Shown one piece after another: positions 48,229 to 63,211 of a stretch of 64,000 nucleotides of DNA. Source of the DNA: an uncultured Saprospiraceae bacterium (GTDB lineage: Bacteria > Bacteroidota > Bacteroidia > Chitinophagales > Saprospiraceae); contig CALGAW010000035.1 of the NCBI GenBank assembly GCA_937959115.1, positions 186,001-250,000 of the forward strand. Reading direction: 5' to 3'. A program made the translations under genes and the position numbers. The notes under the pieces are model-generated. The model did not search any database and was not told where the DNA came from. It worked only from the letters and a program-made list of their open reading frames with translations. Position 1 is the stretch's first letter. Every line of letters starts with the position of its first letter.

Positions 48229-48351
48229 GCCAAGCGAGCGGTATTGGAAGTGTTGCATCAGTCAATGGAGGAGCGGAAAGTTTCTATTTCGCGGGCGCGG
48301 GTGTCTGCGGATTATCCTTCATCTTTTGTTTGGGTGGGGAGTATGAACCCC
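48229..48351 (+). pseudogene. Internal fragment of comM (YifB-type AAA ATPase)
   Basis: One frame encodes a stretch very like the region after Walker B in ComM/YifB: 'KRAVLEVLHQSMEERKVSIS', 'RARVSADYPSSF' and 'VWVGSMNP'. After MNP (codons 48343-48351) the similarity ends at a TGA. The continuation of the same conserved motif, CGCGFFNHP, is found 13.6 kb away at 61965. The fragment is visibly more GC-rich than its surroundings, as is the C-terminal piece. The N-terminal domain and Walker A of comM are absent; the 5' flank holds an unrelated S74 fragment. Confidence 0.82.
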
Positions 48352-48451
48352 TGAGGGAAAGTTTTGGTTAACTATCCAAAAAGAGATGGTATCTTTAATC
48401 TTTCTCAACTTCCTAAATAATCGTTACATTATCGTAGGGAATCATGAAATT

Positions 48452-49012
48452 CTAATGAGATCCATAAACTACAGGTTTCAAGTCTGACCATTTCCCCGCT
48501 GGAAAATAAAGTTGGTTTCCTTTTAATTTAATGGGGTTTGAACGTGCTTCATGTCTAATAATTCTGGAAGGTTCAATCATTTCATAATATACAACTATAT
48601 AATCCCTATCAATTAACTCATTTATTGTAAGTGTTCGAAACTGTGAATCCCTAACAGCAAGACAGAATATATATCCAACAGGTTTTTTAACTGTTGTGAA
48701 ATCTGAAATGTCTTTATCATGAAATACATATTTAACATGGGCATTCTTGATTTCGAATTGATAATAGCTACTATCGGTTTTATGATTTTTAAGTTCATCC
48801 ATACTGAAGCGCTTTCTAACTTCTTGAAATTTTGGTGGCGTAATTTCCAATATGAATGGTCCTTCTTTTTCACCGCTCCTATCATCTATATAGGAAAAGT
48901 AGCAACCTCCTGGTTCTTGACCACCATCAAGCCGCGCCTCGAATAAAACGGATTTCTGTGATTTACAGCTGAAACACAAACAAAGAAGTGCAAAAAGATA
49001 TATGTTTTTCAT
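48452..49012 (-). CDS. Lipoprotein of unknown function
   Basis: The 186-residue protein has a short lipoprotein signal (MKNIYLFALLCLCFSC, lipobox CFSC). The mature part is beta-rich with 'GGQEPGGCYFSYIDD', 'GPFILEITPPKFQEV' and 'YVFHDKDIS'. No family is recognised. It is the first complete gene inside the comM island at the left and lies 4 bp after the metzincin-like gene on the same strand, so it is probably its operon partner. Confidence 0.75.
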   Translation of the reverse strand: MKNIYLFALLCLCFSCKSQKSVLFEARLDGGQEPGGCYFSYIDDRSGEKEGPFILEITPPKFQEVRKRFSMDELKNHKTDSSYYQFEIKNAHVKYVFHDKDISDFTTVKKPVGYIFCLAVRDSQFRTLTINELIDRDYIVVYYEMIEPSRIIRHEARSNPIKLKGNQLYFPAGKWSDLKPVVYGSH

Positions 49013-49016
49013 CCTT

Positions 49017-49745
49017 TTAATTTGTAATTAATAACTTATCAGAAACTATTCCAGTTTCACTTATAAAACTTTTTACGTAAATTCCATACTCTTGAGGTGC
49101 TGGAAGAGTTAACTCGCTAAAAGTTTTTATATTCATGTAGGAACTGATCAATTTGCCATCTATTTGGTACAAGTTGACTTGCTTAATATTACTCAAATAA
49201 TTCGATAAAACATGAATTGTTCCATTCTTAACATAAGTATTAATTGAAATATCTGTTTCTAAATCTATAGTTCCTGTCGCACAATTACTACGTGCATATG
49301 CTCCACCTGCGCATGTGTGACTTAAACTATGATCTTGAATATAATTGCTTGCTTCTAATGCTTCATTCGTAATATTGAATGCAGCACCATAGTCGTAGTA
49401 CATTAATTCATTTGGATGATTCGTGTGTTGCAAGCCCTGCGCGTGCCCTAACTCATGAAGGGCAACCACCTCAACAAAATACGGAAATCCAATACTAGGA
49501 TTAGGTATAGAAGCATTCCAACTTGAAGGAGGTAGATCGGAATTAAATACAATTTTTACATCATGAATAAAGTCGACCGGATGGGTTTCTGGATGGTTTG
49601 GACTGCTATTGTCTAATTGAATTAGGCAATCAACATTATGAACAGAGGTAATTACTGTTGTAGCAAGTGCATTTGGATTTGGAGTGGTATTATAATCAAC
49701 TAAAATATCATGGTCATCTAACAATTTTTCTGTCTTCTTTTTCAT
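49017..49745 (-). CDS. Metzincin-like zinc protease with T9SS-like C-terminus, apparently lacking its N-terminus
   Basis: The 242-residue frame has the metzincin zinc motif 'HELGHAQGLQH' (HExxHxxGxxH) near residue 97 and a following Met-turn candidate 'ELMYYD'. Its C-terminal 70 residues look like a sorting domain ('KQVNLYQIDGKLISSY', 'EYGIYVKSF', 'LLITN'). There is no signal peptide: it starts MKKKTEKLLDDHD, in what looks like the middle of a domain. T9SS cargo needs a Sec signal, so the gene is probably 5'-truncated, or its start was fused when the island was rearranged; the upstream neighbour is a truncated helicase. Confidence 0.72.
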   Translation of the reverse strand: MKKKTEKLLDDHDILVDYNTTPNPNALATTVITSVHNVDCLIQLDNSSPNHPETHPVDFIHDVKIVFNSDLPPSSWNASIPNPSIGFPYFVEVVALHELGHAQGLQHTNHPNELMYYDYGAAFNITNEALEASNYIQDHSLSHTCAGGAYARSNCATGTIDLETDISINTYVKNGTIHVLSNYLSNIKQVNLYQIDGKLISSYMNIKTFSELTLPAPQEYGIYVKSFISETGIVSDKLLITN

Positions 49746-49828
49746 AAAACAAATTTTTAGAAAAAATTTGACCTACAAAACTTAATGACGATATTTCTTC
49801 AGTTTTTAGCTAAAACACAAAATTCTGC

Positions 49829-50557
49829 TTACTCCCTGATTTCATCTTCAGTTCTATATTCAGATAAAATTTCAAGAATTTCCTCAGACTTATCTATCCA
49901 GTTCCAATAAGGAATTGGTAAGAAAGAATTATAATCACCATTTTTTATTTCTAAGAATGTTCCAGCACCTTGTTCAGGGAGAGAATCTTCAAACAATTCC
50001 AAGATTTTTTTATACCCATTGTGATCATTGTCTAAATTAATAGTGAATGCATTTCTTATAGAATCTATGCAAGCATGAGAGTCATCCAATATTAAACTGC
50101 CAACATGTGTGTAATTGTTTCCTAAACCAAAAATAGTTTTTCCATTGAATACTTTTTGCACATGAGTGATTAAAATCTTTTTCCCATCTAAAAAATCATT
50201 TGGTATTGAATTGTCAGACCCTATAGTACAATAACTAATGCCAAATTTCTTCGCATCCTTCCTAACTTGATCGACCAAATATTTGTTAGGGCAAATAAAA
50301 AGACAAGGACCTTCGCCGGAATTAATTTTTGACTGTAAAATTAATAACCCAATTAGAGTTTTCCCCTCTCCAGTGTGAAGTTTTACAATTAGATCTTTTT
50401 CATCTTTCCTTTTACCAAACCATCTACTAAGGACTTCACTTTGCGCTGGCCTTAAGGGGCCTGCAATACTTCTTCTATCAAGAGAATCATAAATCTCAAT
50501 CGGGTTCGTTTTTTTCTCCTTTGCTTTTTTGTTAAGTCTTTTTCTAAAATCAACCAT
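49829..50557 (-). pseudogene. N-terminal part of an SF2 DEAD/DEAH-type helicase (3'-truncated)
   Basis: The 242-codon frame has the start of a superfamily 2 helicase: 'GPLRPAQSEVLSRWF' (Q-motif-like), the P-loop 'KLHTGEGKTLIG' (motif I), 'CPNKYLVDQV' (Ia) and 'LILDDSHACIDS' (motif II, DDSH in place of DEAH). It stops before motif III and lacks the whole second RecA lobe, whereas relatives run to 800 residues or more. The stop is followed after 83 bp by the signal-less protease gene. Such helicases occur in phage-defence and mobile loci, but no partner nuclease is visible. Confidence 0.75.
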
Positions 50558-51163
50558 TTAGTTATTTTTATATTCTACATTAAAATGAAACAACAAATTA
50601 ATATTTTAGTTCCATTAGTTAGTTTTTTGCAAAATCAATAGTATCGCGTATTTATTTGAGTATTGCGGCCAAGGTTGTACTTATTTTTTAGTTAAATATT
50701 TTTCCATATAGCTATATGTGTATTGATAATTGTAAAACCTCTTTTTAATTCATTTAACATTCCTGCATTGGGACGAAGGATCCACTCTAAGCAAAAAATA
50801 GCATGAATCGTTTCAGTCCAAAGTTTCCGCTACTCCCTTCATTCACTAGGTATACATAAACTACAATAGTAACGTATTATTTATTTTTTCTCGTACTAAA
50901 AATCAACATAGAATATAATTCCCAAATTGATTTTTATAACTACTGATTGATCAAATAATCAATGATTTTGTACAGCTAATTGAAACCATTATGTAAGTCA
51001 GGATATAACACCCAAAGTGTATCAATCAAGTTGAAATATAGATTTATCATTCTTTTCTTCTGAGAGCCGATTGATCGTATACGGCACAAATATGGAATAG
51101 ATTAACAACCCAAACTACTTTTCTAACAATTATGTTGTTCCTTAGAAGTGAAATGGATTTAAT
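50558..51163. other. AT-rich gene-free stretch within the island
   Basis: I see no coding frame or RNA gene. A perfect 14-bp palindrome CATATAGCTATATG is at 50705-50718. The region should hold the promoter of the helicase fragment and the end of the DUF6161-like gene's transcript. Confidence 0.4.
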
Positions 51164-52414
51164 TTACTTCCCAAATATTTTACCCATTATATCATTGGGC
51201 ATGCTAGGACTTGAGTCTTCTTTTAATAATCCAGTATCTGCTCTGCTGAACAAAGATTGCATGATCAAATTTTTCTCGTTATCACTGATTGCAGATTCTT
51301 TAATCAAAGCTAGATAGACGTAGGTTAATTGCTCACGTTCCTCTGCATCTCGTGCTAAATGAAAGGAACTAAAGGCTATTTTGTTTAGTGCTCGAATTCC
51401 ATACGCTAAGAACGAAAGAAAGGTAATATAAATTACAGACCACTTTATCGCACTGGATTGATTTGATTTAAAGCTAACCATCATTCCTTCAGGAGTGAGC
51501 CATAAAAGAAAATAGAGAGTTGTACATGTAAGAACTATCATTCCGATCAACCAATAGATTGCTGTCCAACCTTCATTTTTTAATTTCAATGCTCGTTTTT
51601 TCCAATATTCTGCTGGCTTCTTAAGTCTTAAGATCTCTTCATAAGTTTTTTCTAAACTTTCAATCTTATTCTTGGAGGCTTCATTAAAAGTACCCAAATC
51701 CTCTTTTGATGTCGAAAACCATTTATTGAAAAGAGCTTCTTTTTCGACTCGTAACCCAGTCATCATCTCCACATGTTCTTTATATTCCTTTGCAGATTTA
51801 GACAGATGTTCTGAAACATGGGTTTCAATTTCCGATAAATGATTTCGTAACTTTTCATCAATTTGACGAATTGATGATGGCCCGTCCTCCTGTCTTTGAA
51901 TAAAATCTGAATGGTCTTTATAACGGAAATCATAAGCCATTAGGCTTCCTATGTAGTTTTCTTGTTTATTTAGATTATGTGAGTGTAAACCTACTAGAAA
52001 ATTATATGCTCCTGGAAAATTATCTGGATACTCTTGATTCAATTGTATTAGAAATTGAGTCGTAGGAGAATCGAATATAAACAACTGTTCATGTTTTCGG
52101 AGGTGAACAGCTTCTTGCATCCAATTTTTTTCTATCAGAGCCACATAATCCACTTGAATGATATCAATTATAAAGCCCTCTAATCGAGCTAATAAAGCTA
52201 TAAAGTGTTCTTTTGATCTTTCTAATTGAGACGGTAATGATTCATATTTTTTCCACCCCTTAACTTGATCCAAAAGGAATTTATGGATTGAGCTAAGTCC
52301 TTTAAAACTCTGAAAAAAATCAATATGTGGATAATTTATTTCTATCTGAATTGAATTGAAAAATTCAGTAAACTCTGATTCTGCAATAAATTCTCTTACT
52401 TCTTTTGTTGTCAT
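51164..52414 (-). CDS. DUF6161-like membrane protein
   Basis: The 416-residue protein starts at ATG 52414 (MTTKEV). A long helical, soluble N-terminal part has a coiled-coil stretch around residues 180-275 ('KNKIESLEKTYEEILRLK'). It is followed by two membrane helices (about 285-305 and 325-345) and a conserved C-terminal tail 'SFHLARDAEEREQLTYVYLA' with 'ALFSR'-like 'QSLFSRADTGLLKEDSSP'. I associate this tail with the DUF6161 family from memory. The function is unknown; its presence in an island next to a helicase relic hints at defence or envelope stress, but that is only inference. Confidence 0.7.
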   Translation of the reverse strand: MTTKEVREFIAESEFTEFFNSIQIEINYPHIDFFQSFKGLSSIHKFLLDQVKGWKKYESLPSQLERSKEHFIALLARLEGFIIDIIQVDYVALIEKNWMQEAVHLRKHEQLFIFDSPTTQFLIQLNQEYPDNFPGAYNFLVGLHSHNLNKQENYIGSLMAYDFRYKDHSDFIQRQEDGPSSIRQIDEKLRNHLSEIETHVSEHLSKSAKEYKEHVEMMTGLRVEKEALFNKWFSTSKEDLGTFNEASKNKIESLEKTYEEILRLKKPAEYWKKRALKLKNEGWTAIYWLIGMIVLTCTTLYFLLWLTPEGMMVSFKSNQSSAIKWSVIYITFLSFLAYGIRALNKIAFSSFHLARDAEEREQLTYVYLALIKESAISDNEKNLIMQSLFSRADTGLLKEDSSPSMPNDIMGKIFGK

Positions 52415-52495
52415 CAACTGGGTATTATAGGCTAGGAGAGGTTCGGGACATTTCTCAAGCGAGCCAATTTCGAATATTGTTTTTGTAAGCCTTGA

Positions 52496-53527
52496 TTAGT
52501 TTGGCGAAATAAGAATTTGTTTCTCTTCCCCGCTCATAAGGTCCATCAAGTATAAGTTCTCATAGTGATTTGCATCCCAATTCCCTTTTTTCTGCCGCTC
52601 TATCCGGTAAATTAATGCTGTAGTTTCATCACTTGAGATGTCCAAATATTGATACCATCTGTTGTCATAACCTTGTTTAATAAGTGTACCAGAATTTCCT
52701 TTTTGAAATTTTAAAATGCCAAATTTTGAAGCTGCTAACACGTATTCTTTATTGGTAAAACATTTTATTTTTTTTATTTGATTGTCATCAGTTTTTGAAT
52801 CAGCAATGTATGCGAATTTTTCAATAAAACCATCTAAAAGTGAATATGACCAGATGCTATAAGATTTGTCATTTATGTTCAGGCTATCAGCAGTAAAGTG
52901 TATTCTTTGATCATCTGACCAAGAGAAATTCGAAGCTCTGGAAAGACCTTTCAAGGTGTCTAAACTAACTCCATATTCATTCATTATAATGGTATAGCTT
53001 TCTGTGCCATAAGTATGTCGATATACAATTCTTTGGCCATCAGGACTCCAAGAACCGAAGAGATTTTGTCCTATAGATGTTAGACGAAACAGGTCGCTAC
53101 CATCAGAACCTACTTTCCAGATTTGACCAAACTTGTCAGTGAAAATAATGCTATTAAATTTATTCCAATGAGGAAATTGTGCTCCTTTGTCGTAAAGTAA
53201 TGAGCTGGTTTCTGTACAAAAATCGTAAAGCCATAATTCTGGATACTCGACAGGTATATTTGTTTCGTAAACTCTAATATTCCTAATATATGCGATAAGA
53301 TTATTATTATTAGGATTAAAAACACCATAATTAAACCGATATCCATTGTTTTCCGGATAAAAGATTTTATTCTCTACCCATATAGAACTATCTAAAACAA
53401 TGACAGCTTGTGTATCTATTGCAAGCTCTGTATTTTGATTAAGACACAAAGGAAGAACTAGTTTTTCATGTTTGCATTTACTGAACAAACTAAGAATTAA
53501 AACGATGTAATAAATATTCTTCGTCAT
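52496..53527 (-). CDS. TolB-like beta-propeller lipoprotein, copy 1
   Basis: The 343-residue protein has a lipoprotein-like signal (MTKNIYYIVLILSLFSKC) and repeated WD40-like/TolB-type propeller blades: 'LWLYDFCTETSS', 'FPHWNKFNSIIFTD', 'QIWKVGSDGSDLFRLTSIG', 'LFGSWSPDGQRIVYR' and 'NFSWSDDQRIHF'. The next gene upstream, 9 bp away, is a diverged paralogue with the same blade order. Propellers of this kind usually bind proteins or glycans. The pair looks like a tandem duplication. Confidence 0.8.
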   Translation of the reverse strand: MTKNIYYIVLILSLFSKCKHEKLVLPLCLNQNTELAIDTQAVIVLDSSIWVENKIFYPENNGYRFNYGVFNPNNNNLIAYIRNIRVYETNIPVEYPELWLYDFCTETSSLLYDKGAQFPHWNKFNSIIFTDKFGQIWKVGSDGSDLFRLTSIGQNLFGSWSPDGQRIVYRHTYGTESYTIIMNEYGVSLDTLKGLSRASNFSWSDDQRIHFTADSLNINDKSYSIWSYSLLDGFIEKFAYIADSKTDDNQIKKIKCFTNKEYVLAASKFGILKFQKGNSGTLIKQGYDNRWYQYLDISSDETTALIYRIERQKKGNWDANHYENLYLMDLMSGEEKQILISPN

Positions 53528-53536
53528 TAAAAAAAA

Positions 53537-54547
53537 TTATTCAGGCAAGATAATTTTACGTTCCTCTTCTGTTTCCATGTCTATCAAATATAGTGAGTTT
53601 TTATTGTCAATACTACAGCTGTCTATATTGGTGCGGTCAATTCGGTTTATTACTCCAATCTTTCCATCACGAGATATATCAAAATCTCCATAATGCCTAT
53701 TGTCATACCCTTCAAGTAAAGTATTTCTTATCCCTGAGGTCGAACTAGTATATCCAAATTTGAGATAAGAACTCCAGAATAATTTATTTTTAGAGGGGAC
53801 TATTTTTAGAAAAGAAGTATTGTAGTCTCTTGTTTCTAAATACTCTATATTATGTAATTGTCTTGTATTTAAATCTAAATACCATAATCCTGGATTACTT
53901 ACTGGTTGAGCAATCCCATTTCCAATAAAGTATATTTTACTCTCAACTTCCCAGGAAAAATCAAGGGCAACCTGAATCTCATTTATGGTATCTAAATTGT
54001 TTCCCTGCTCGTCCATTATCAACTGAATAACATTAGATCCCACTTGATTTCTGTATATTATTTTTGTTCCATCTGGATTCCAAGTACCATACAGGTTTAC
54101 TCCATTATTTGTCAGTCGTGTTAGTTCTGTCCCTGAGCTTCGGATTTTCCATATTTGATTGTCAAATCCTGTAAATACTATCCAATCATTTTTATTCCAA
54201 TCAATATGCCCCACTGCATTCATTGTTAAAAAGTGATGTTCATTAGAGCAAAAATCATATGTCCATAATTGCCACCGCTCAAGGCCAATGTTTTCGAAGT
54301 CAATTTTTGTATATGCAATAATATCATCCAGGTTAACACTAATTGAAGGAGATAAATATTGATATCGATCAATATACGTTGGCAAAGGACCACCTACACA
54401 CCAAGGAATTTGGAAGCTCTCATCAACATTTATAGCAGGTACAGACTTTTCATATTTACAACTTGCTCCTAGAGTGCTATCTATTATTGGCTTATGTTGG
54501 CAATTAGAAAAAATAATTATCACAGTTAGAAAAAATACATTTTTCAT
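53537..54547 (-). CDS. TolB-like beta-propeller lipoprotein, copy 2
   Basis: The 336-residue protein starts at ATG 54547 (MKNVFF) with a lipoprotein signal ending FSNC. It matches its neighbour blade by blade: 'LWTYDFCSNEHHF', 'IDWNKNDWIVFTGFDNQIWK', 'GTELTRLTNNGVNLYGTW', 'NPDGTKIIYRN' and 'DFSWEVESKIYFI'. Both end with a 'DLMSGEEKQI' or 'DMETEEERKI' segment. A hairpin at 54566-54600 separates it from the subtilisin gene, so the two lipoprotein genes form their own unit. Confidence 0.8.
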   Translation of the reverse strand: MKNVFFLTVIIIFSNCQHKPIIDSTLGASCKYEKSVPAINVDESFQIPWCVGGPLPTYIDRYQYLSPSISVNLDDIIAYTKIDFENIGLERWQLWTYDFCSNEHHFLTMNAVGHIDWNKNDWIVFTGFDNQIWKIRSSGTELTRLTNNGVNLYGTWNPDGTKIIYRNQVGSNVIQLIMDEQGNNLDTINEIQVALDFSWEVESKIYFIGNGIAQPVSNPGLWYLDLNTRQLHNIEYLETRDYNTSFLKIVPSKNKLFWSSYLKFGYTSSTSGIRNTLLEGYDNRHYGDFDISRDGKIGVINRIDRTNIDSCSIDNKNSLYLIDMETEEERKIILPE

Positions 54548-54565
54548 GCTCAAAGAAAAATACTA

Positions 54566-54600
54566 TGTCCGAGTGATTTCACTAAAGAATCACTCGGACA
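54566..54600 (-). terminator. Hairpin after the subtilisin gene
   Basis: TGTCCGAGTGATT and AATCACTCGGACA form a perfect 13-bp stem with a 9-nt loop. On the minus strand a weak TAGTATTTTT tract follows. Confidence 0.65.
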
Positions 54601-54605
54601 AATAA

Positions 54606-57600
54606 TTATAATTTTACAAACTTTACAGATGACGACACATTTGCATTTGTCACATTGTAAAGATAAACACCTGATGGTAAATATTCAACATTGTCCTCAA
54701 TTTCTCTTTTACCCGTAGGTAATTGACCTTCAAAGACTTTTTTAATGAATTTCCCATCTACAGAATACAAATTGATTTCTGTATATGTTGAAATTGGATT
54801 TTCAAATGTAATAGTTACATTATTTTTAGATGGATTTGGGTAGATAGAAACAAAAGTTTCATCAATAACATTATCTGTGGAAGTTGGGCCTATATGAAAT
54901 AATTGTGTGTATTCCACATTCGTATTGTTAATATTAATTGTAGCAGGATCTCGAGGTAACCAATCTAACAAGGTTCCATTAGTATCCTTTATTTTATAGA
55001 CGAATCCTGTAAGTTCAGTAAGGCTTCCATTACTAGTTGTACTTACTAATTCACAGTGTTCATAAGGCATAAGATAATTCACTCCGTTTATATTTTTAAA
55101 GGGAGCCATTAATCCAGTAATAGATGAAGGCCTTGCCCAAGCATCAACAAAGTTCCAAAGGGCAGGAACAGTATAAAACGTTTTCCAAATTATGGGATAC
55201 ACATCTACCTTGTATACTTGTCCTGGATTTAAAATTATCCCGTTTTGCAATTCATAAGGATAAATTACTTCAAGATCAATGTCTAAGGCTGGAGCTGCTT
55301 GAGAAATTAAACTTCCATTATGAGTAAAATTACCTTGATGTACTATTCTACGATTTGGATTTCTTACATATTTTAGGGCTTCTTCTGCATTAATCCTTCC
55401 TAATCCAGTTTGGCTATCCCACCCATTAGAGCTCTCACCGTTAACAACTACATTGTCTGCAGTCTCTTCTAGAATATGTTCAATATCTTCTGGGGCTAGA
55501 TATAGCGCTGAATTAGAATTATATACACTCCCTAACAATAGTGCTGAAACTCCAGCTGTATGCGGTGTAGCTGCGGAGGTAGCTCCGAAAGCAGTATATT
55601 GAGAATTACCATTCATCATTGATGGAAATGTTGTATATATAGTACCAATATTAGATGGGGCGGCTATATCCATTGTCTCACTTGTCCTCAGATTGGAATT
55701 TGCATTTAATTGAGTACCTGTTCCCCCAACGTTTAGAATCCAATCGTCAAAAAAGTCTGAAGGATATTCTTGATTATCATAAATTAAATTCTGGTTACCA
55801 GCAGCCGTTGCCAAGGTGACTTCATTTTTGTTGGAAAATTGACAAGCATCATGTAAAACTAATATATTAGCCTCATCGAACCATCCATAATCTGTTTCAT
55901 TGATGCCCCAACTCAAATTAAGGATATGTAAACCCCAAGCATAAGGTTGGCCATTATCGGCACTCGCATAAACAATGGCTTCAGCAATGTAATCCATAGG
56001 GTAAGCTCCACTACCATCTACGAAGAAGGTACCATTTGAGACCCTTAGGCTATAAAGTGAGGCACCCGGTAAATTATTAGATGCATTACCTCCTGCAATT
56101 CCTGCAACCCCCTCTCCATTGTTCCTTACTGCACCTACTATTCCTCCACAGGAGGTGCCATGTGGACTTTCTGGTGTAGAATTATAAAAACCAGTGAATG
56201 GATATAGATTAGAAACGGTTGTTGTTGGTGCGGTATTTTCAAAACTCCAACCTTCTTTTACCACTGACGAAGAGGGATTTGTTCCGTCATAACCAAAGTC
56301 ATAATGTAATTGATCCAGAGCACTATCTATGATACCCACTTTAATACCTGGATCGCCCTCTTCTCTACACCAAGCAGGTTCCATATTAATATGGGCATTG
56401 GAATAATTCGTCGTAGGATGCAAGCTTGCTTGGTTTATTGATTCAGGATCTGTTGAAGGGCAGCTAGGGGGGCTACTGCTCGCTTTTGCCAAATAATTAG
56501 GATGGGCATATTTCAACAAATGAGTTAGGGGTTTTAGAGTCTGACATGTGGTTTTTACTTGTTTGCCTTCAGGTATAATAAGGGTAAGAGTAGTCCAAAA
56601 ATCTGGAATCGGGATGGTACGTCCATTTCTTGATTTTGATGTCGTATGAGAAGGATCTAACTTTCTAAAAACTCTCACCATCTGCGCATCACCTAGATTA
56701 AAAGCCAAACGGCTATCTAGTTCATTATATGCAGCTGCTGTTAAGAAAAATGCTGGTTCGCCATGCTGATAATCCATTTTCGACATATTCTGAAGATTCA
56801 AAGCACTTTGTTTAAATCGAATAATGACCATTCTATCAATATAACCGGAAGTGCCCGATGCGTTAAAAACAGGCTCAGCTGGTCGTTTAAAGGAACTGTA
56901 TTTGATAGTAGTATTAACTTCGTTTACACCATCAAAGGATTTGCCAGTGACATAAACATTCGATTGATTGTCTATGGTAACTGATTTTGCCTCATCATCA
57001 CCATTACCATCACCATCATAGGTTTGTTCCCATTTAAGTTCACCTTCTTTGTTATATTCTGTGCTCACAATATCCTTTGAACTTGAGATGTCTTTTTCAC
57101 CTACTACAACAACTCCTCCAGTAGTTTTTGCTTTTAACTGGAAGGCTTCAGAAGAGCCCGTAGGATCTTTAGATTCACTTTTTCGAACCCACTTCTCATT
57201 TCCATAAAGATCATACATAATAGTCACCATGATTTTTCTTCCTGATTCTGTCATATAGCCAGTAATATAGGTGTTACCTTCTAAGTCAACATCTATTGAT
57301 GTTGCCATATCTTCTTCTCCAGCACCATCAAATATTGCTGACCATTCTAGGTTCAGATTACTGTTGAGCTTGATGGTTTTTATGTTAGGGTTGGCAGGGT
57401 TTAATGCAGATTGCCCTGTAATATAGAAGTCCCCTTTGTTGTCAGAGGCAATTGCAGTTGGCTTACTGATTCCTGTTCCAACAGAAGCTAGTTGGTGCTC
57501 GTCTAGTAAAAGCCCATTTGAGTTATAGGTTACGGTTGAGTATTCCCAATTTATTATAGAATTTGAACTTGCACCAGTTATGGTTATTGTTTCGTTTGCA

Positions 57601-58202
57601 TCCACAACCATTCCTGCTGGAATATCATATAGATTATTGTAGTCATATCTACTGACCCACTGTTGTGTTCCATCATTATTCAGTTTAACTAAACAATAGT
57701 CTGTTAACGTACCATTTCCCTCTGAGCCTCCTAAGAGATAGATTGAATTATTTATTGCCGATATCGCAATAGGAATGTCGTTACCGTTATTGTTATATAT
57801 GTATTGCCAAAGCAAAGTACCATTTGGTGCATACTTCAACACTACAATATCAAAATAGGAGGTAGCTCAATTAGTAATGGCCCCAGCTACATAAATATTT
57901 CCATAAGCATCAGGAGCAATTGCGGCACCGTAATCATTCTCGTTATTCCCACTGTCGAATTCTTCTTTCCAAATCGAACTACCATCTTTGTCGTATTTGA
58001 TAGTCAACACATTAGTTGTTCCATTCGGTGTCTTAGTATTACTAGTTACTAACAAATTAGAACCATCTAGCGTAGACGCAGACCAATCAATCTGATCAGG
58101 TTCACCATCTGATACTACCCATTCTTTGTTAATCGTAACTTGTGCAATGAGACATGCTGCCCATACAAGGATAATGCTTGTCAAAAAGAGTCGAAATTTC
58201 AT
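54606..58202 (-). pseudogene. Subtilisin-like (S8) T9SS protease with SBBP-type repeats, broken by one in-frame TGA
   Basis: Two adjacent frames in the same phase form one gene of 1198 sense and nonsense codons. The first 111 codons hold a signal peptide (ending CLIAQ) and the start of the propeller-like SBBP repeats. Then comes TGA at 57867-57869, and the repeats continue at once ('ATSYFDIVVLKYAPNG'). Further on is a complete S8 domain with Asp in 'VGIIDSALD', His in 'SPHGTSCGGIVGA', 'ATAAGN' and Ser in 'GATSAATPHTAG'. A type A sorting domain follows ('VSIYPNPSKNNVTI' to 'SSVKFVKL'). The TGA sits where a Gly (GGA) would suit the repeat. Everything else is intact, so this is a recent nonsense mutation, a sequencing error or, less likely, readthrough. 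Confidence 0.88.
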
Positions 58203-58479
58203 ATTGTTTATTTTTAATTACAAAAATTGATTTCCTAACTAAATATAAGATGGGTATGAATTTGTACGGTTTTTTTTTGTTTATCCTAAGAAAGTAATAG
58301 AAAATATAAGCTATAAGATGGTATTATGAATATAGTATATTATTTCACTAAAATATGTATAAAATCAATGCAAAGATATTTTATAAAGAACTATTTACAA
58401 ACTTTAACATATTGTATTTGTTAATTATGTTTCCTGTCATGTAAAGTTGTTCGAATAGAATTGTATTAAGAAGTAGGCA
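58203..58479. other. AT-rich region upstream of the subtilisin gene
   Basis: No coding frame or RNA gene is visible. It should contain the promoter of the subtilisin gene. Confidence 0.35.
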
Positions 58480-58640
58480 ATGTCAACATTTATAACTGTT
58501 GCGGCTTGTTTTAAGTTAAGACCTCTCGTATGTTGCTTTCCGTATATGATGACCTATAGTCGTAAATGTTTCTGGGTACGTTAGTTTCAGAGGCTTTTTC
58601 CACTTAATTCGACCAATTCAAAATAATCGCCACAAACACT
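58480..58640 (-). pseudogene. Decayed copy of the tandem-HTH regulator gene
   Basis: The minus strand shows the same N-terminal sequence as the intact gene at 61501-61947: 'ELVELSGK', then in a second frame 'KLTYPETFTTIGHHIRKATY', then in a third frame 'GLNLKQAATVINV'. Two single-base deletions relative to the intact copy (in AGACCT and in GAGAGGGGT) cause the frame changes. Only the first third of the gene remains. The DNA similarity to the other copy stops just upstream of the start, about where comM homology begins in the intact copy. Confidence 0.8.
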
Positions 58641-58671
58641 TTGGGGGCAAGTCTAGATTGAATGTACTTGT

Positions 58672-58716
58672 AAAAAGAAGTGACACTATTTTTTGTTATA
58701 AAACCTAGTGTCACTT
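58672..58716 (-). terminator. Terminator after the lipoprotein gene
   Basis: On the minus strand AAGTGACACTA pairs perfectly with TAGTGTCACTT (11 bp, 17-nt loop), followed by CTTTTT. It lies 35 bp after the stop at 58752. Confidence 0.82.
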
Positions 58717-58751
58717 CAAATTACAACTAATTAAATTTGCAAATAATATAC

Positions 58752-59411
58752 TTACATCACCCAAAATGCATAATACCCATTTTCCCACCAATCTTTTTCA
58801 TCGTTAAAGAATACGGTATCAATTTTACCTTGTTGAAGTTGAACTATCGTATATCTTCCTTCCAATACTGATAGATTGTTATTTTCATTATTAGGACGTA
58901 CACTTGATTTTCTCCAGATATCCTCATAACATGGATCTCCAAGGTCCACTGCATTTTCTTTAAAGTATAAAGGTATCCATGAGCTGATTACATATCCTCC
59001 TTTTTTCTTAGGAAGAATAAACATTTTAAATAATCTTTCAGGTTGTTTTAAAATTAAATTTCCTCCGGATGCAGTTCTTTGCAATTCCCCATTTGAGGCA
59101 AAATATTCAAAATCTGATCCATGTTGATCATAATGGATAGTATCAAATCGTTGAAAATAAAAATTAAAATATAATAGGTCGAGACTTGTGGTGTTAATTT
59201 GTTCTCCTGTATTATGGTCTTCCATAACATCGTCAATCTTAACCTCATACCAAATTGTATCTCCTATGTTAAATGTATCTAAGGATGGAGATACTGTTGC
59301 AGGAAATAATAATTTATACTCTCTATAGCATCCATCAGGTTTTACACAATTAGTAAACAAAGTAATTGTAAACAATACTACTATAACTGTTGTAGCGATT
59401 TTCATATTCAT
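58752..59411 (-). CDS. Lipoprotein of unknown function
   Basis: The 219-residue protein has a lipoprotein signal with Cys at residue 22 (FTNC) and then 'VKPDGCYREYKLLFPATVSP'. The mature part is beta-rich, including 'IGDTIWYEVKIDDVMED', 'LLYFNFYFQRFDTI' and a C-terminal 'DEKDWWENGYYAFWV'. I recognise no family. It begins 5 bp after the 648-residue zincin-like gene and ends at a strong terminator, so the two genes make one transcription unit and may act together at the cell surface. Confidence 0.75.
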   Translation of the reverse strand: MNMKIATTVIVVLFTITLFTNCVKPDGCYREYKLLFPATVSPSLDTFNIGDTIWYEVKIDDVMEDHNTGEQINTTSLDLLYFNFYFQRFDTIHYDQHGSDFEYFASNGELQRTASGGNLILKQPERLFKMFILPKKKGGYVISSWIPLYFKENAVDLGDPCYEDIWRKSSVRPNNENNNLSVLEGRYTIVQLQQGKIDTVFFNDEKDWWENGYYAFWVM

Positions 59412-59416
59412 AATTT

Positions 59417-61363
59417 TTAGTATCCGTATTGTTGAAACAGGAGTTGCAAATCATTAATATTTTGCCCTGATGGAAGAATATTGGTCAAATTTTGTTCCAC
59501 TATATTTAATCTATCAGGATTGTTTGTTGTAACAGCATCAAAACAATCTTTTATTGTATAACCTTGAATATTATCCATTACTGGATCAATGAGTGGAGAA
59601 ACATTGTGCAATGTATTATCTAAACAGTCAGAAAACAACCCGAATGGCATCCAATCAAGATTACTGGTGTTTCCAGCTACGGGAGGACTAGGTGTGTGCA
59701 TTTCTCCTCCTAAAGGCTGATAGATAAATCTTGTCTCTGCTGCTACTCCACCATTGCTATGTAGTAAACCATATTTTCTATCAGCATATTGAAAGCCAAT
59801 AAATCCAGCCCAAGATTCTACAATGGCTGCTCTTTCGGATTCTGGAGCTAAGCCATCACCATAACCACTGTTTTCTACAACATGTTTGATTTCCTTCATC
59901 CAATAAATATTTCTATTTGGCAAACCTTTATATTGAGCTGCATGCCCATATTCATGCAGAAAAACCTCATTAACTTCGTCTGAATCACGTGTAGGTGAAT
60001 TATTCTGACTTCCATATCCATAATAAACATCTGGTGCAAAAGCGATCAAATAAAGCTTTAAGGGTTGCAAGTAAGGGGTTATTTTATTAATAAAACTGAA
60101 AAAATTATCAGTGACTAGATCAAATAGAATAGGACCAAAACCTGGTGCAGTTACACTTGCTAAGGTAATTTGAACACCATGATTTGTCTTTAAATGATTC
60201 AGCATCGGTGCAGAAGCTTCAGTCTCTTGATTTGACAACAATACTACCAATCTATTCGGAGGAGCATCTATATTATCTTGCGTTGCATATGTATCAAAAT
60301 CATAAACTGAATTGTTTGCATGCGCTGAGTACCAAAGCATTTTTTCTCTTGTTTCATCATCAGAATTTGGTCTAAATGTTTGACAAATATTATTGAAATT
60401 TGAACCCAAGACTGTTGAATTAAATTTTACTGCTTGAGCGTATTGCCATATTCTTACACCTCGTATTGCCCTCACCGTGACACGGAAGCTTTTGAATATT
60501 GCAATAACAGCAATTGCCGGGGAATGAAATTTTGAATTAATTCTCCAACATCCATTTGCATTAGTATTTGTAACACCTAGATTCCATCCCATCCCAAGGA
60601 CTACAATCGTAACATTCTTAACTCCTTGATCTCCTAATTGAGAATCCTCTACGCTAAGTCTTCCAGCCGGCTTTTTGGCATGGTCATAAAAAATACATTC
60701 ACAATCATTTGTAGGAGGTGGTGGTGGAGGGGGAGGGGGAGCAGTAACCTCCTCAATACACGCGTCATATCCTTGCTGGTCTCCATGCTCCAGATAAAAA
60801 TCACATTGACATTCTGGCCAACGCAGATCTTGATCATCACATACTACACTTAAATCTAGCCCATTAACTTCTCTTGCTTCTCCGCCGTAAGCCATGCCCA
60901 CTAGTTCATAAGCGATAGCGGTTAATTTTGTATCTTCCAATGTTATATGCATTTCTGCTAGTACATCATGAGGTACTTCTGGTATTTCAGTATTTGTCTT
61001 AACTAATGCATAATAATCAGGTATCTCTTCTTCCTCTTTGCCTGGGGCAATATAATAATCTCCCAATTCTTTAATCTCTCTTCCTAGTGGAAAATCAAAT
61101 AATGGTACATCTAATTGATCTAGACGTGCAAGTTCCTCATAGGTATTAGGGCTAAATTTTATATACCGATCTGTTGTTGGCACTACTTTTAATTCTGACT
61201 CGGGATGTAGTTCTAAATACGCTTTTGTAACATTTTCAATAGTGTAGGGGTTGGGTATTTCTTCACCAAGTACAGTAAGTTTATCTCTATCTTGGGAGAA
61301 TACTAAAGTGGATTGAATAAAAAGATACAATAGGAAAATTGAAACTTTGAAATGATTTTTCAT
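59417..61363 (-). CDS. Exported zincin-like protein with polyproline linker
   Basis: The 648-residue protein has a signal peptide ending VFSQ. An N-terminal domain of about 190 residues includes 'SPNTYEELARLDQLDVPLF', and is followed by a Cys-rich stretch ('CDDQDLRWPECQCDFYLEHG'). A run of nine prolines lies near residue 215. Next comes a possible carboxypeptidase-regulatory-like beta domain ('VKNVTIVVLGMGW', 'NANGCWRINS'), and last a helical domain with the zinc motif 'HEYGHAAQYKG'. A Glu-containing 'AIVESWAGF' lies about 40 residues later and could be the third ligand. No T9SS sorting domain is visible. A lipoprotein gene follows at 5 bp. Proteolysis is plausible but not shown; the family is not recognised. 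Confidence 0.75.
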   Translation of the reverse strand: MKNHFKVSIFLLYLFIQSTLVFSQDRDKLTVLGEEIPNPYTIENVTKAYLELHPESELKVVPTTDRYIKFSPNTYEELARLDQLDVPLFDFPLGREIKELGDYYIAPGKEEEEIPDYYALVKTNTEIPEVPHDVLAEMHITLEDTKLTAIAYELVGMAYGGEAREVNGLDLSVVCDDQDLRWPECQCDFYLEHGDQQGYDACIEEVTAPPPPPPPPPTNDCECIFYDHAKKPAGRLSVEDSQLGDQGVKNVTIVVLGMGWNLGVTNTNANGCWRINSKFHSPAIAVIAIFKSFRVTVRAIRGVRIWQYAQAVKFNSTVLGSNFNNICQTFRPNSDDETREKMLWYSAHANNSVYDFDTYATQDNIDAPPNRLVVLLSNQETEASAPMLNHLKTNHGVQITLASVTAPGFGPILFDLVTDNFFSFINKITPYLQPLKLYLIAFAPDVYYGYGSQNNSPTRDSDEVNEVFLHEYGHAAQYKGLPNRNIYWMKEIKHVVENSGYGDGLAPESERAAIVESWAGFIGFQYADRKYGLLHSNGGVAAETRFIYQPLGGEMHTPSPPVAGNTSNLDWMPFGLFSDCLDNTLHNVSPLIDPVMDNIQGYTIKDCFDAVTTNNPDRLNIVEQNLTNILPSGQNINDLQLLFQQYGY

Positions 61364-61500
61364 GTTGTTTATTGTTTAATGAAAGTTTTGATTTATATAC
61401 GCAATGTATGGATTATAACGAAACATGACAAATTTTATTATATAAATATTTGTATTATTCCTGAATGGTAGAAATTTGTTTCCCAAGGACTTAGATAGGA

Positions 61501-61947
61501 TCACTTATATAGTTTTCTTATCATATTTCTATTCAAATATCCTTCTATTTTCCTTATTGTTTTATCAAAAGACTTTCCCTCATTACGCTCAATTCGTGCA
61601 ATGGTTACGCCATCACTTCGAATCAATTTACCCAGTTGTTTAATGCTTATTCCTTCCCTCATACGATACCTCCACAACCTCTTCCCTATACTCTGATCAG
61701 ACTCATCATCAAATGGAAGATAGCCTAAGAATTCGATAATCTTAGGTATTGATTTGACACATGGCTCACTGTGGCCCATCTCCCAATTAAGGATAGTAGC
61801 TTTTGATATTTGCATGATCTTACTTGCTTGTGGAAGGTTAAGTCCTCGTTCATATCGCACTTTTCGAATATGATGACCTATCGTAGTAAGTGCCTCTGGA
61901 TACGGTAGTTTCAGAGGTCTTTTTCCTGTTAATTCGACCAATTGCAA
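61501..61947 (-). CDS. Tandem helix-turn-helix (XRE-type) regulator at the island boundary
   Basis: The 148-residue protein holds two HTH_3-type DNA-binding domains: 'IGHHIRKVRYERGLNLPQAS' with 'KATILNWEMG' (about residues 25-60), and 'IGKRLWRYRMREGISIKQLG' with 'DGVTIARIERNEG' (about 86-125). 'PKIIEFLGYLPFD' lies between them. This double-HTH layout is a widespread family of unknown role. The only start candidates are TTG codons (61947 or 61941), within 20 bp of the resumed comM sequence, so the gene may have lost its real start on insertion or use a TTG. A decayed copy is at 58480-58640. Confidence 0.78.
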   Translation of the reverse strand: MQLVELTGKRPLKLPYPEALTTIGHHIRKVRYERGLNLPQASKIMQISKATILNWEMGHSEPCVKSIPKIIEFLGYLPFDDESDQSIGKRLWRYRMREGISIKQLGKLIRSDGVTIARIERNEGKSFDKTIRKIEGYLNRNMIRKLYK

Positions 61948-61960
61948 ATACTCACCGCAA

Positions 61961-62449
61961 CCCTGTGGTTGTGGATTTTTTAACCACCCTTCTAGAGATT
62001 GCGTGTGTGGCCCCGGAGTTGTAAAGCGTTACCTCAACAAAATATCCAGGCCCCTCCTTGACCGAATTGACTTACATGTAGAGGTTACCCCCATCTCTTA
62101 TGACGAATTGAGTGATGACCATCCCAGCGAGACGAGTGTCGATATTGCCAAGCGAGTGATCGAGGCAAGAGTGGTTCAGCACGAGCGTTTCACAGAACTC
62201 AAAACGGTATACTGTAATGCGCAGATGCCGGAGCGAATGGTACGACAGGTATGTGTGTTGGATGCTGCGGGAACGGCTTTGCTGAAGACGGCGATGAAGA
62301 AGCTACAGTTGAGTGCTCGTGCGTATGATCGGATTTTGAAAGTGGCACGGACGATCGCTGATTTGGCTGGGAGTGAAGGGGTTGCGACGGAACATCTGGC
62401 GGAGGCGATTCAGTATCGGAGTTTGGATAGAGAGGGGTGGGGTGGATAG
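61961..62449 (+). pseudogene. C-terminal fragment of comM (YifB-type AAA ATPase)
   Basis: The sequence resumes ComM homology at the Met-Asn-Pro-Cys-x-Cys-Gly motif (CCCTGTGGTTGTGG at 61962-61975). It then shows one missing base in a T run (61977-61981) and continues in frame from 61982: 'NHPSRDCVCGPGVVKRYLNK', 'SRPLLDRIDLHVEVTPI', 'LSARAYDRILKVARTIADLA' and the end at 62449. Walker A and B are absent, so it cannot be a working ATPase. An open frame could start at GTG 62003. In naturally competent bacteria ComM is a branch-migration helicase for integrating foreign DNA. Confidence 0.88.
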
Positions 62450-62459
62450 TAATTGTAAA

Positions 62460-62641
62460 CTTGAGTTCACAAATTGTGACCTCAAGACCCTGCCATAAGT
62501 TGCTAAAAAAACAACTAACTAGAAGGTGCTGATAAATTGGAGGTCACAATTTGTGACTACATGGGCCAATCATTAAAAACTTATTGTCAATTGATTATGC
62601 AAGAACGAAAAATTGGAGGTTGCAAATTGAAACCTCCAATT
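62460..62641. repeat. Cluster of REP-like palindromes
   Basis: Three related palindromes lie in 180 bp: 62460-62486 (CTTGAGTTCACAA, centre A, near-perfect complement), 62536-62562 (carrying GAGGTCACAATTTGTGA, the exact reverse complement of part of the first) and 62611-62641 (AATTGGAGGTT with a perfect complement and a 9-nt loop). A smaller hairpin AGTTG/CAACT lies between them near 62498-62517. They follow the comM stop directly and resemble the palindromic intergenic repeats of Bacteroidota. Confidence 0.75.
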
Positions 62642-62724
62642 TGGACTCAACAAAAAATGTTAAATATGAAAACTGAAAACAATTTACAACTGCAACCACA
62701 ATTGTTGATTTTCGATTACAAAAG

Positions 62725-63211
62725 TTAATATTTAATCACCTTAAAAACATCACTTACTCCATCCGCCTGGATTTTAACAAAATAAATTCCGGTACTAACA
62801 TCTATTTTCATCGGAATTGCGGAAACGCTCGAGTGCTGATTTCTAGTAATAATACGACCAGCAATATCCTTAACTGTTACTTCAACATTCTGGTATTCAC
62901 TTTTCAAATCGATAAAGAATTGGCCATCATTGGGATTAGGGTATAAAGAAAAATCTGAATAAGAGCCACTTTGTTCAATATTTGTCAATGTAATAGTGTA
63001 ACAATAAGAAGTGTCAATACAATTATTCTGTGAAACTTCTACAGCATAATTACCACTTGCTGAAGGGGTAAAAGACTGATTTGTCTCACCATTGATTTCT
63101 ATATAATTGAGATTACAATCAAGGCATTGATATCCTGCATTTATAGCATTTGCGTTAAACGTATCTCCATTTACAGTTACACTAGTATCGACATTATTAA
63201 CAGTAAGATTC
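62725..63211 (-). pseudogene. 3' end of a T9SS cargo gene, cut at an inverted-repeat junction
   Basis: The minus strand is open from 63208 to the stop at 62725 and encodes the last 161 residues of a large surface protein: 'NLTVNNVDTSVTVNGDTF', 'GYQCLDCNLNYIEINGE', 'SASGNYAVEVSQNNCID', then a type A sorting domain ('FSLYPNPNDGQFFIDL', 'VTVKDIAGRI', 'STGIYFVKIQADG', ending 'KVIKY'). Upstream of the NLTVNN codons the frame meets a TAG at once, exactly where the 19-bp inverted repeat begins. The gene therefore lacks its body and signal peptide. Confidence 0.82.

Follow-up and report, generated by a model that had tools for sequence, protein, structure and literature searches.

A comM copy split at its Met-Asn-Pro-Cys codons in a Saprospiraceae genome, probably by a comM-targeting serine recombinase element that has since decayed

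The question raised by this locus is how 13.6 kb of low-GC DNA came to separate two pieces of comM, and what kind of element could have placed it there. The window referred to throughout is the whole 64,000-nucleotide stretch that was analysed, from an uncultured Saprospiraceae bacterium. The original prediction was that an accessory island splits a comM copy at its Met-Asn-Pro-Cys codons with both pieces in the same orientation, and this stands, the pieces corresponding to aa 317-356 and aa 357-517 of ComM.

The broken comM copy and the content of the island

Both comM pieces were placed on the forward strand by tblastn against the intact comM (Table 1). The reading of the left piece ends ATG AAC CCC and then TGA (MNP and stop), and the right piece stays open to its natural stop at 62449. 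As had been claimed, the pieces are richer in GC (52.8% and 51.5%) than the island (34.2%) and the window (37.8%), and when they were joined by script, for comparison only, and aligned to the genome's intact comM as had been proposed, they showed 75% DNA identity over 609 bp. The first 316 codons are absent from the window copy, in keeping with the earlier view that the N-terminus went missing through a second event. Both junctions lie on a single 251-kb contig and the same split is found in independent genomes, so that an assembly error is unlikely. An intact comM elsewhere in the genome, which the original prediction had raised as a possibility, does exist as a 517-aa gene on contig C55 (L004:9248-10801); the window comM is therefore a second, broken copy and not the genome's sole comM. 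An ORF6N-like gene follows the intact comM (L004 7996-9052), and the palindromes upstream of it (GGTCGCAAATTGCGACC type) resemble the repeats downstream of the broken copy.

Divergence of the window comM 3' half was compared with that of the intact lineage. With a congeneric outgroup, changes by codon position numbered 10, 6 and 22 in the window 3' half and 8, 4 and 34 on the intact lineage, a fragment from G002 having been left out of these results because its in-frame TAA upset the alignment. Amino-acid changes with this outgroup were 12 in the window 3' half versus 4 on the intact lineage, an excess that vanishes with a second outgroup (5 versus 8). These counts hint, weakly, that the window 3' half may have diverged mostly as a functional gene and lost its constraint later.

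The earlier statement that no integrase, transposase or terminal repeats are visible was borne out. A scan of ten island ORFs, all of about 110 aa or more, turned up neither an integrase nor a transposase. A six-frame profile search of the whole window for a large serine recombinase (LSR), run with every filter disabled, stayed at noise level, and the repeat list has no inverted pair at the two termini of the island. No LSR of the comM-targeting family described below was found elsewhere in the genome. A tRNA as attachment site was considered and rejected, the window being without any tRNA.

The cargo includes a DUF6161/AbiZ-like protein, which is probably a phage-defence gene product, and a helicase that is cut short, an additional sign of island decay. 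Several lipoprotein-like proteins, and others without assignment, make up further cargo. A second tandem-HTH remnant lies inside the island, so more than one right end has piled up there; the homology of this remnant ends at the attR boundary. A decayed comM 3' copy starting at 58636 was considered and rejected, as by eye just ~7/11 bases agree. Elsewhere in the window's own genome (L187, G000:C79, 137-1647) window genes occur in a different order, with a Por-tail fragment like that at 62725-62988, an HTH right end and a homologue of 58752-59411; the HTH right end there keeps a clean attP arm, next to which stand TGCCCC and, beyond it, unrelated sequence.

Table 1. Features of the split comM copy and the island, with positions in the window
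Feature	Position	Strand	Evidence or remark
comM 5'-side remnant	48229..48351	+	ComM aa 317-356, ends MNP; B (bacterial) half of attL; 72% DNA identity to intact comM, tblastn
TG core plus AGG	48352..48356	+	Matches TGAGG, the commonest first element-side bases in 54 LSR attL sites
Truncated helicase	49829..50557	-	First 240/831 positions of PADLOC model PDC-S28 (candidate defence helicase); remainder missing
DUF6161/AbiZ-like protein	51164..52417	-	Pfam E 8.7e-67; PADLOC AbiZ E 1.2e-30
Secreted subtilase with Por sorting domain, cargo	54606..57842	-	Pfam Peptidase_S8 and Por_Secre_tail
Second tandem-HTH right-end remnant	58519..58635	-	HTH aa 9-35 and upstream arm; direct repeats D1/D3; tblastn 74%
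Tandem-HTH (Xre) regulator gene	61501..61947	-	Pfam HTH_3 and HTH_31; constant right-end gene, adjoins comM 3' halves in relatives
Left arm of attP, ends ACTCACCGCAACCC, element half of attR	61948..61963	+	Reverse-complement match to attP arm PWM
TG recombination core	61964..61965	+	Inside the invariant Cys357 codon
Displaced comM 3' half	61964..62449	+	ComM aa 357-517, without internal stop
comM downstream region	62454..62642	+	GGTCACAATTTGTGACC-type repeats; similar ones between intact comM and ORF6N-like gene on C55

The same split in relatives and its attachment site

A search with the comM 3' half, covering 61 genomes (the window's own and relatives of the same order), revealed extra comM C-terminal fragments in several relatives. 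The tandem-HTH gene stands divergently beside the comM 3' fragment in G017 and G038 and, twice in each genome, in G023 and G060, so the expectation that this gene would mark the end of other islands proved sound. G017 and G060 also have comM 5' halves cut at the same codons as in the window (between MNP and CPCG); they share contig and orientation with the 3' halves and lie 38 kb from them in G017 and 49 kb in G060. At the left end of both islands is an LSR of 512-524 aa with Resolvase and Recombinase domains, which is convergent with and overlaps the comM 5' half. Besides the LSR, the G017 island encodes another serine recombinase and a small tyrosine integrase, a T4SS coupling protein, a relaxase of the MobA/VirD2 type, a RadC-like protein, a type I restriction subunit and an OLD-TOPRIM and UvrD pair resembling Gabija, a gene content that gives it the look of a conjugative or mobilisable element.

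When GTDB species genomes were scanned with the LSRs of G017 and G060 and the best 80 of 199 relatives were kept, comM homology was present at 56 of the 80 loci, and at 54 of the 80 the LSR lies directly beside a comM 5' half that ends at the MNP codons and is readable to the junction. These 54 loci come from Bacteroidota, Ignavibacteria, Acidobacteria, Planctomycetes, Armatimonadetes, Elusimicrobia, Chloroflexi and several classes of Proteobacteria, the host labels being in many cases those of metagenome bins and individually perhaps wrong. With the junction marked by a slash, the attL consensus over the 54 loci is ATGAAYCCN/TGAGGTTGCGTTGCC, or in full ATG AAY CCN/TG A GG TTGCGTTGCC. The core T and the core G are each present in 51/54, two exceptions being three-base register shifts of the extraction, and an A follows the TG in 37/54, so that in most a TGA stop comes at once. 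Among genomes of the order, the right ends (attR examples GGGCAACGCACGGA/TG and ATTCCAAAAGGGCAACGCACGGA/TG) have an arm that is approximately the inverse complement of the left arm. Inverted arms around a 2-bp TG core, which here falls in the invariant Cys357 codon, are the expected shape of an LSR attP.

Against an arm model derived from other loci the right end in the window (ACTCACCGCAACCC then TG) ranks 7 among 127,952 window positions. The whole 24-nt left arm ranks 17,404 of 127,952 against the attP arm model, its match stopping after TGAGG and being not significant beyond. With no LSR in window or genome, and a left arm that matches for TGAGG alone, the element has most likely lost its left part, and the suggestion that the island is a remnant was correct, the LSR being absent and most of the left arm probably lost. 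The occurrence of CCCTG at both edges had also been pointed out; the shared bases are there, but they are not a target duplication and represent the TG core together with a CC that attB and attP have in common.

The association of the tandem-HTH gene with the LSR was counted over 199 genomes of the order, in which the LSR occurs in 11 and the HTH gene in 15. Nine of the 11 LSR-bearing genomes have the HTH gene, compared with 15/199 overall (hypergeometric P 2.3e-10), and 13 of 23 HTH matches directly adjoin comM halves that were cut at aa 356/357, 11 of them 3' halves and two 5' halves. The usual order is reversed in G123 (L158 984-1469, L170 1501-2996), with the LSR beside the comM 3' half and the HTH gene beside the 5' half; the position of the LSR indicates that the gene order within the element is flipped there.

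Single loci of the LSR family show further variation. An Armatimonadetes element that cuts comM appears to carry a complete spare comM beside its LSR (L086 4409-5941 and 7466-8530), the spare and the truncated half of the host gene being 77% identical in DNA, a disruption with built-in replacement. In another genome two LSRs of the comM-targeting family stand face to face, ~60 bp apart (L154 and L162, G110:C11:117465-120452).

Units of the HTH gene and a comM 3' copy were also found as scars. G038 has an intact comM, then 5.5 kb, the HTH gene and a comM 3' copy, and part of the downstream flank is duplicated. The two comM 3' copies of this genome differ at 26 bases, of which 24 are third codon positions, a bias indicating that the extra copy came from the working gene of a near relative. 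Where a genome shows an intact comM or a second fragment, each comM fragment has that copy as its nearest match in DNA, with 76-95% identity to the intact gene. Two full tandem units lie within 2 kb in G023 (L044 4266-6310), with no cargo between them and a comM 3' tail preceding the first, and G060 likewise has two units.

Origin of the island

The island is very probably a decayed integrative element of the kind whose LSR targets comM. The ancestral element would have had the LSR at its left end and the tandem-HTH regulator at its right end, and the LSR would have recombined an attP, consisting of two inverted arms and a TG core, with an attB across the Met-Asn-Pro-Cys codons of comM. The cut would fall behind Pro356 in the AAA+ (Mg-chelatase-like) part of ComM, where the element often contributes a TGA stop straight away. 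Such an LSR presumably inserted the particular island seen in the window, and later deletions would have stripped the first 316 codons from comM, and the LSR and most of the left arm from the element. What remained would be the defence-type cargo (the AbiZ-like protein and the truncated PDC-S28 helicase) and the secreted proteins. The comM function of the host may have been kept or regained via the intact copy on C55. As the LSR is absent from both window and genome, the island is filed as a remnant and not as a complete member. The junction lies within five bases of the core, a notable position for which random deletion does not fully account. Counted against the LSR origin are the lack of an LSR of this family in window and genome, the left arm that agrees with the attP consensus for just its first five bases, and the intact comM on C55, which leaves an undisturbed ancestral site at the window locus only putative; no empty site at the window location was found among close relatives.

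An alternative is that homologous recombination with a circle or transforming DNA, carrying cargo, the HTH gene and a comM 3' half, brought in the 3' piece together with the HTH gene, the LSR event having taken place in a donor. This would agree with the lack of an LSR in the window's genome and with the repetition of the HTH and comM 3' units, beside an intact comM in G038 and as pairs in G023 and G060, but the comM 5' remnant ends exactly at the TG core, which is explained by integration and not by recombination at the comM 3' half alone, and as an account of the window island this history is improbable. For the scars themselves the case is different. Their repetition in genomes with an intact comM is the less expected part of the results, and plain LSR integration into a single comM makes no second 3' copy. 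Where a scar accompanies an intact gene, the preferred candidate explanation is that DNA with the HTH gene and a comM 3' half entered by homologous recombination. The damaged window copy, considered together with the repeated scars, shows how frequently the comM site is hit and, apparently, mended.

A wider scheme, which is speculative and rather doubtful, is that comM in these bacteria is broken by an LSR and repaired over and over, with one scar left each time, and that the scars, with ~480 bp of comM homology, would act as RecA-dependent docking sites at which defence cargo could be gained or lost without an integrase and with a full comM retained.

It is highly improbable that an AbaR-like (Tn7/TniABC) transposon island entered comM here. 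AbaR islands do break comM in the Mg-chelatase domain in Acinetobacter (PMC11472951), but the scanned island ORFs contain no transposase or tni/tns-type genes, intact relatives with the identical split carry an LSR at the comM junction, the right end of the island is an LSR attP arm and no target duplication is present beyond the TG core and adjacent C's, so the AbaR/Tn7 analogy of the original prediction has to be given up as a mechanism. Hardly credible, too, is a chance rearrangement of unrelated comM fragments around ordinary genes, or a misassembled contig, for although the draft genome comes in 90 contigs and the locus is rearranged at its left edge, independent genomes from several families show the identical boundary codon with the same HTH gene next to it.

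Relation to known systems

That comM is a target of LSRs is already known, and the window island is most likely a degenerate, integrase-less remnant of a known kind of element. LSRs targeting a comM-family gene have been published (Durrant 2022, PMC10083194), and these are of the same enzyme class and, as far as annotation shows, have the same target gene family, whereas the window island has lost its LSR. Phages WO of the sr1WO group, which integrate in the magnesium chelatase gene, carry HTH_XRE genes at their 3' end (PMC9203015). Wolbachia phage WO is, however, an endosymbiont phage, whereas the G017 relative has conjugation-type genes (a MobA-type relaxase, a T4SS coupling protein and RadC); none of this type was seen in the window island.

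Both AbaR islands and other elements, which bear defence genes, interrupt comM in Acinetobacter, where loss of the gene lowers transformation (PMC11472951). ComM is the helicase that enables recombination of transforming DNA with long non-homologous stretches (PMC11472951). Elements that cut comM therefore also hinder a host route for deleting them. Such a conflict can be put to the test far outside Acinetobacter, since one LSR family uses the same Cys codon in hosts ranging from Bacteroidota to Proteobacteria, Acidobacteria and Planctomycetes. A sequence test for spotting integrase-less remnants like the window island is also provided by the core and arms. AbaR/AbGRI islands are likewise accessory islands that split comM in the Mg-chelatase domain, but they use Tn7-like transposition and no serine recombinase, and the window island is without tni genes as far as seen.

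A literature search on yifB with serine integrase gave no match. Mageeney et al. are said to have described, in NAR in 2020, cases of regulated gene integrity such as yifB. There, likewise, an integrative element keeps yifB/comM off while it is inserted, but the window island should no longer excise precisely, its LSR and left arm being gone.
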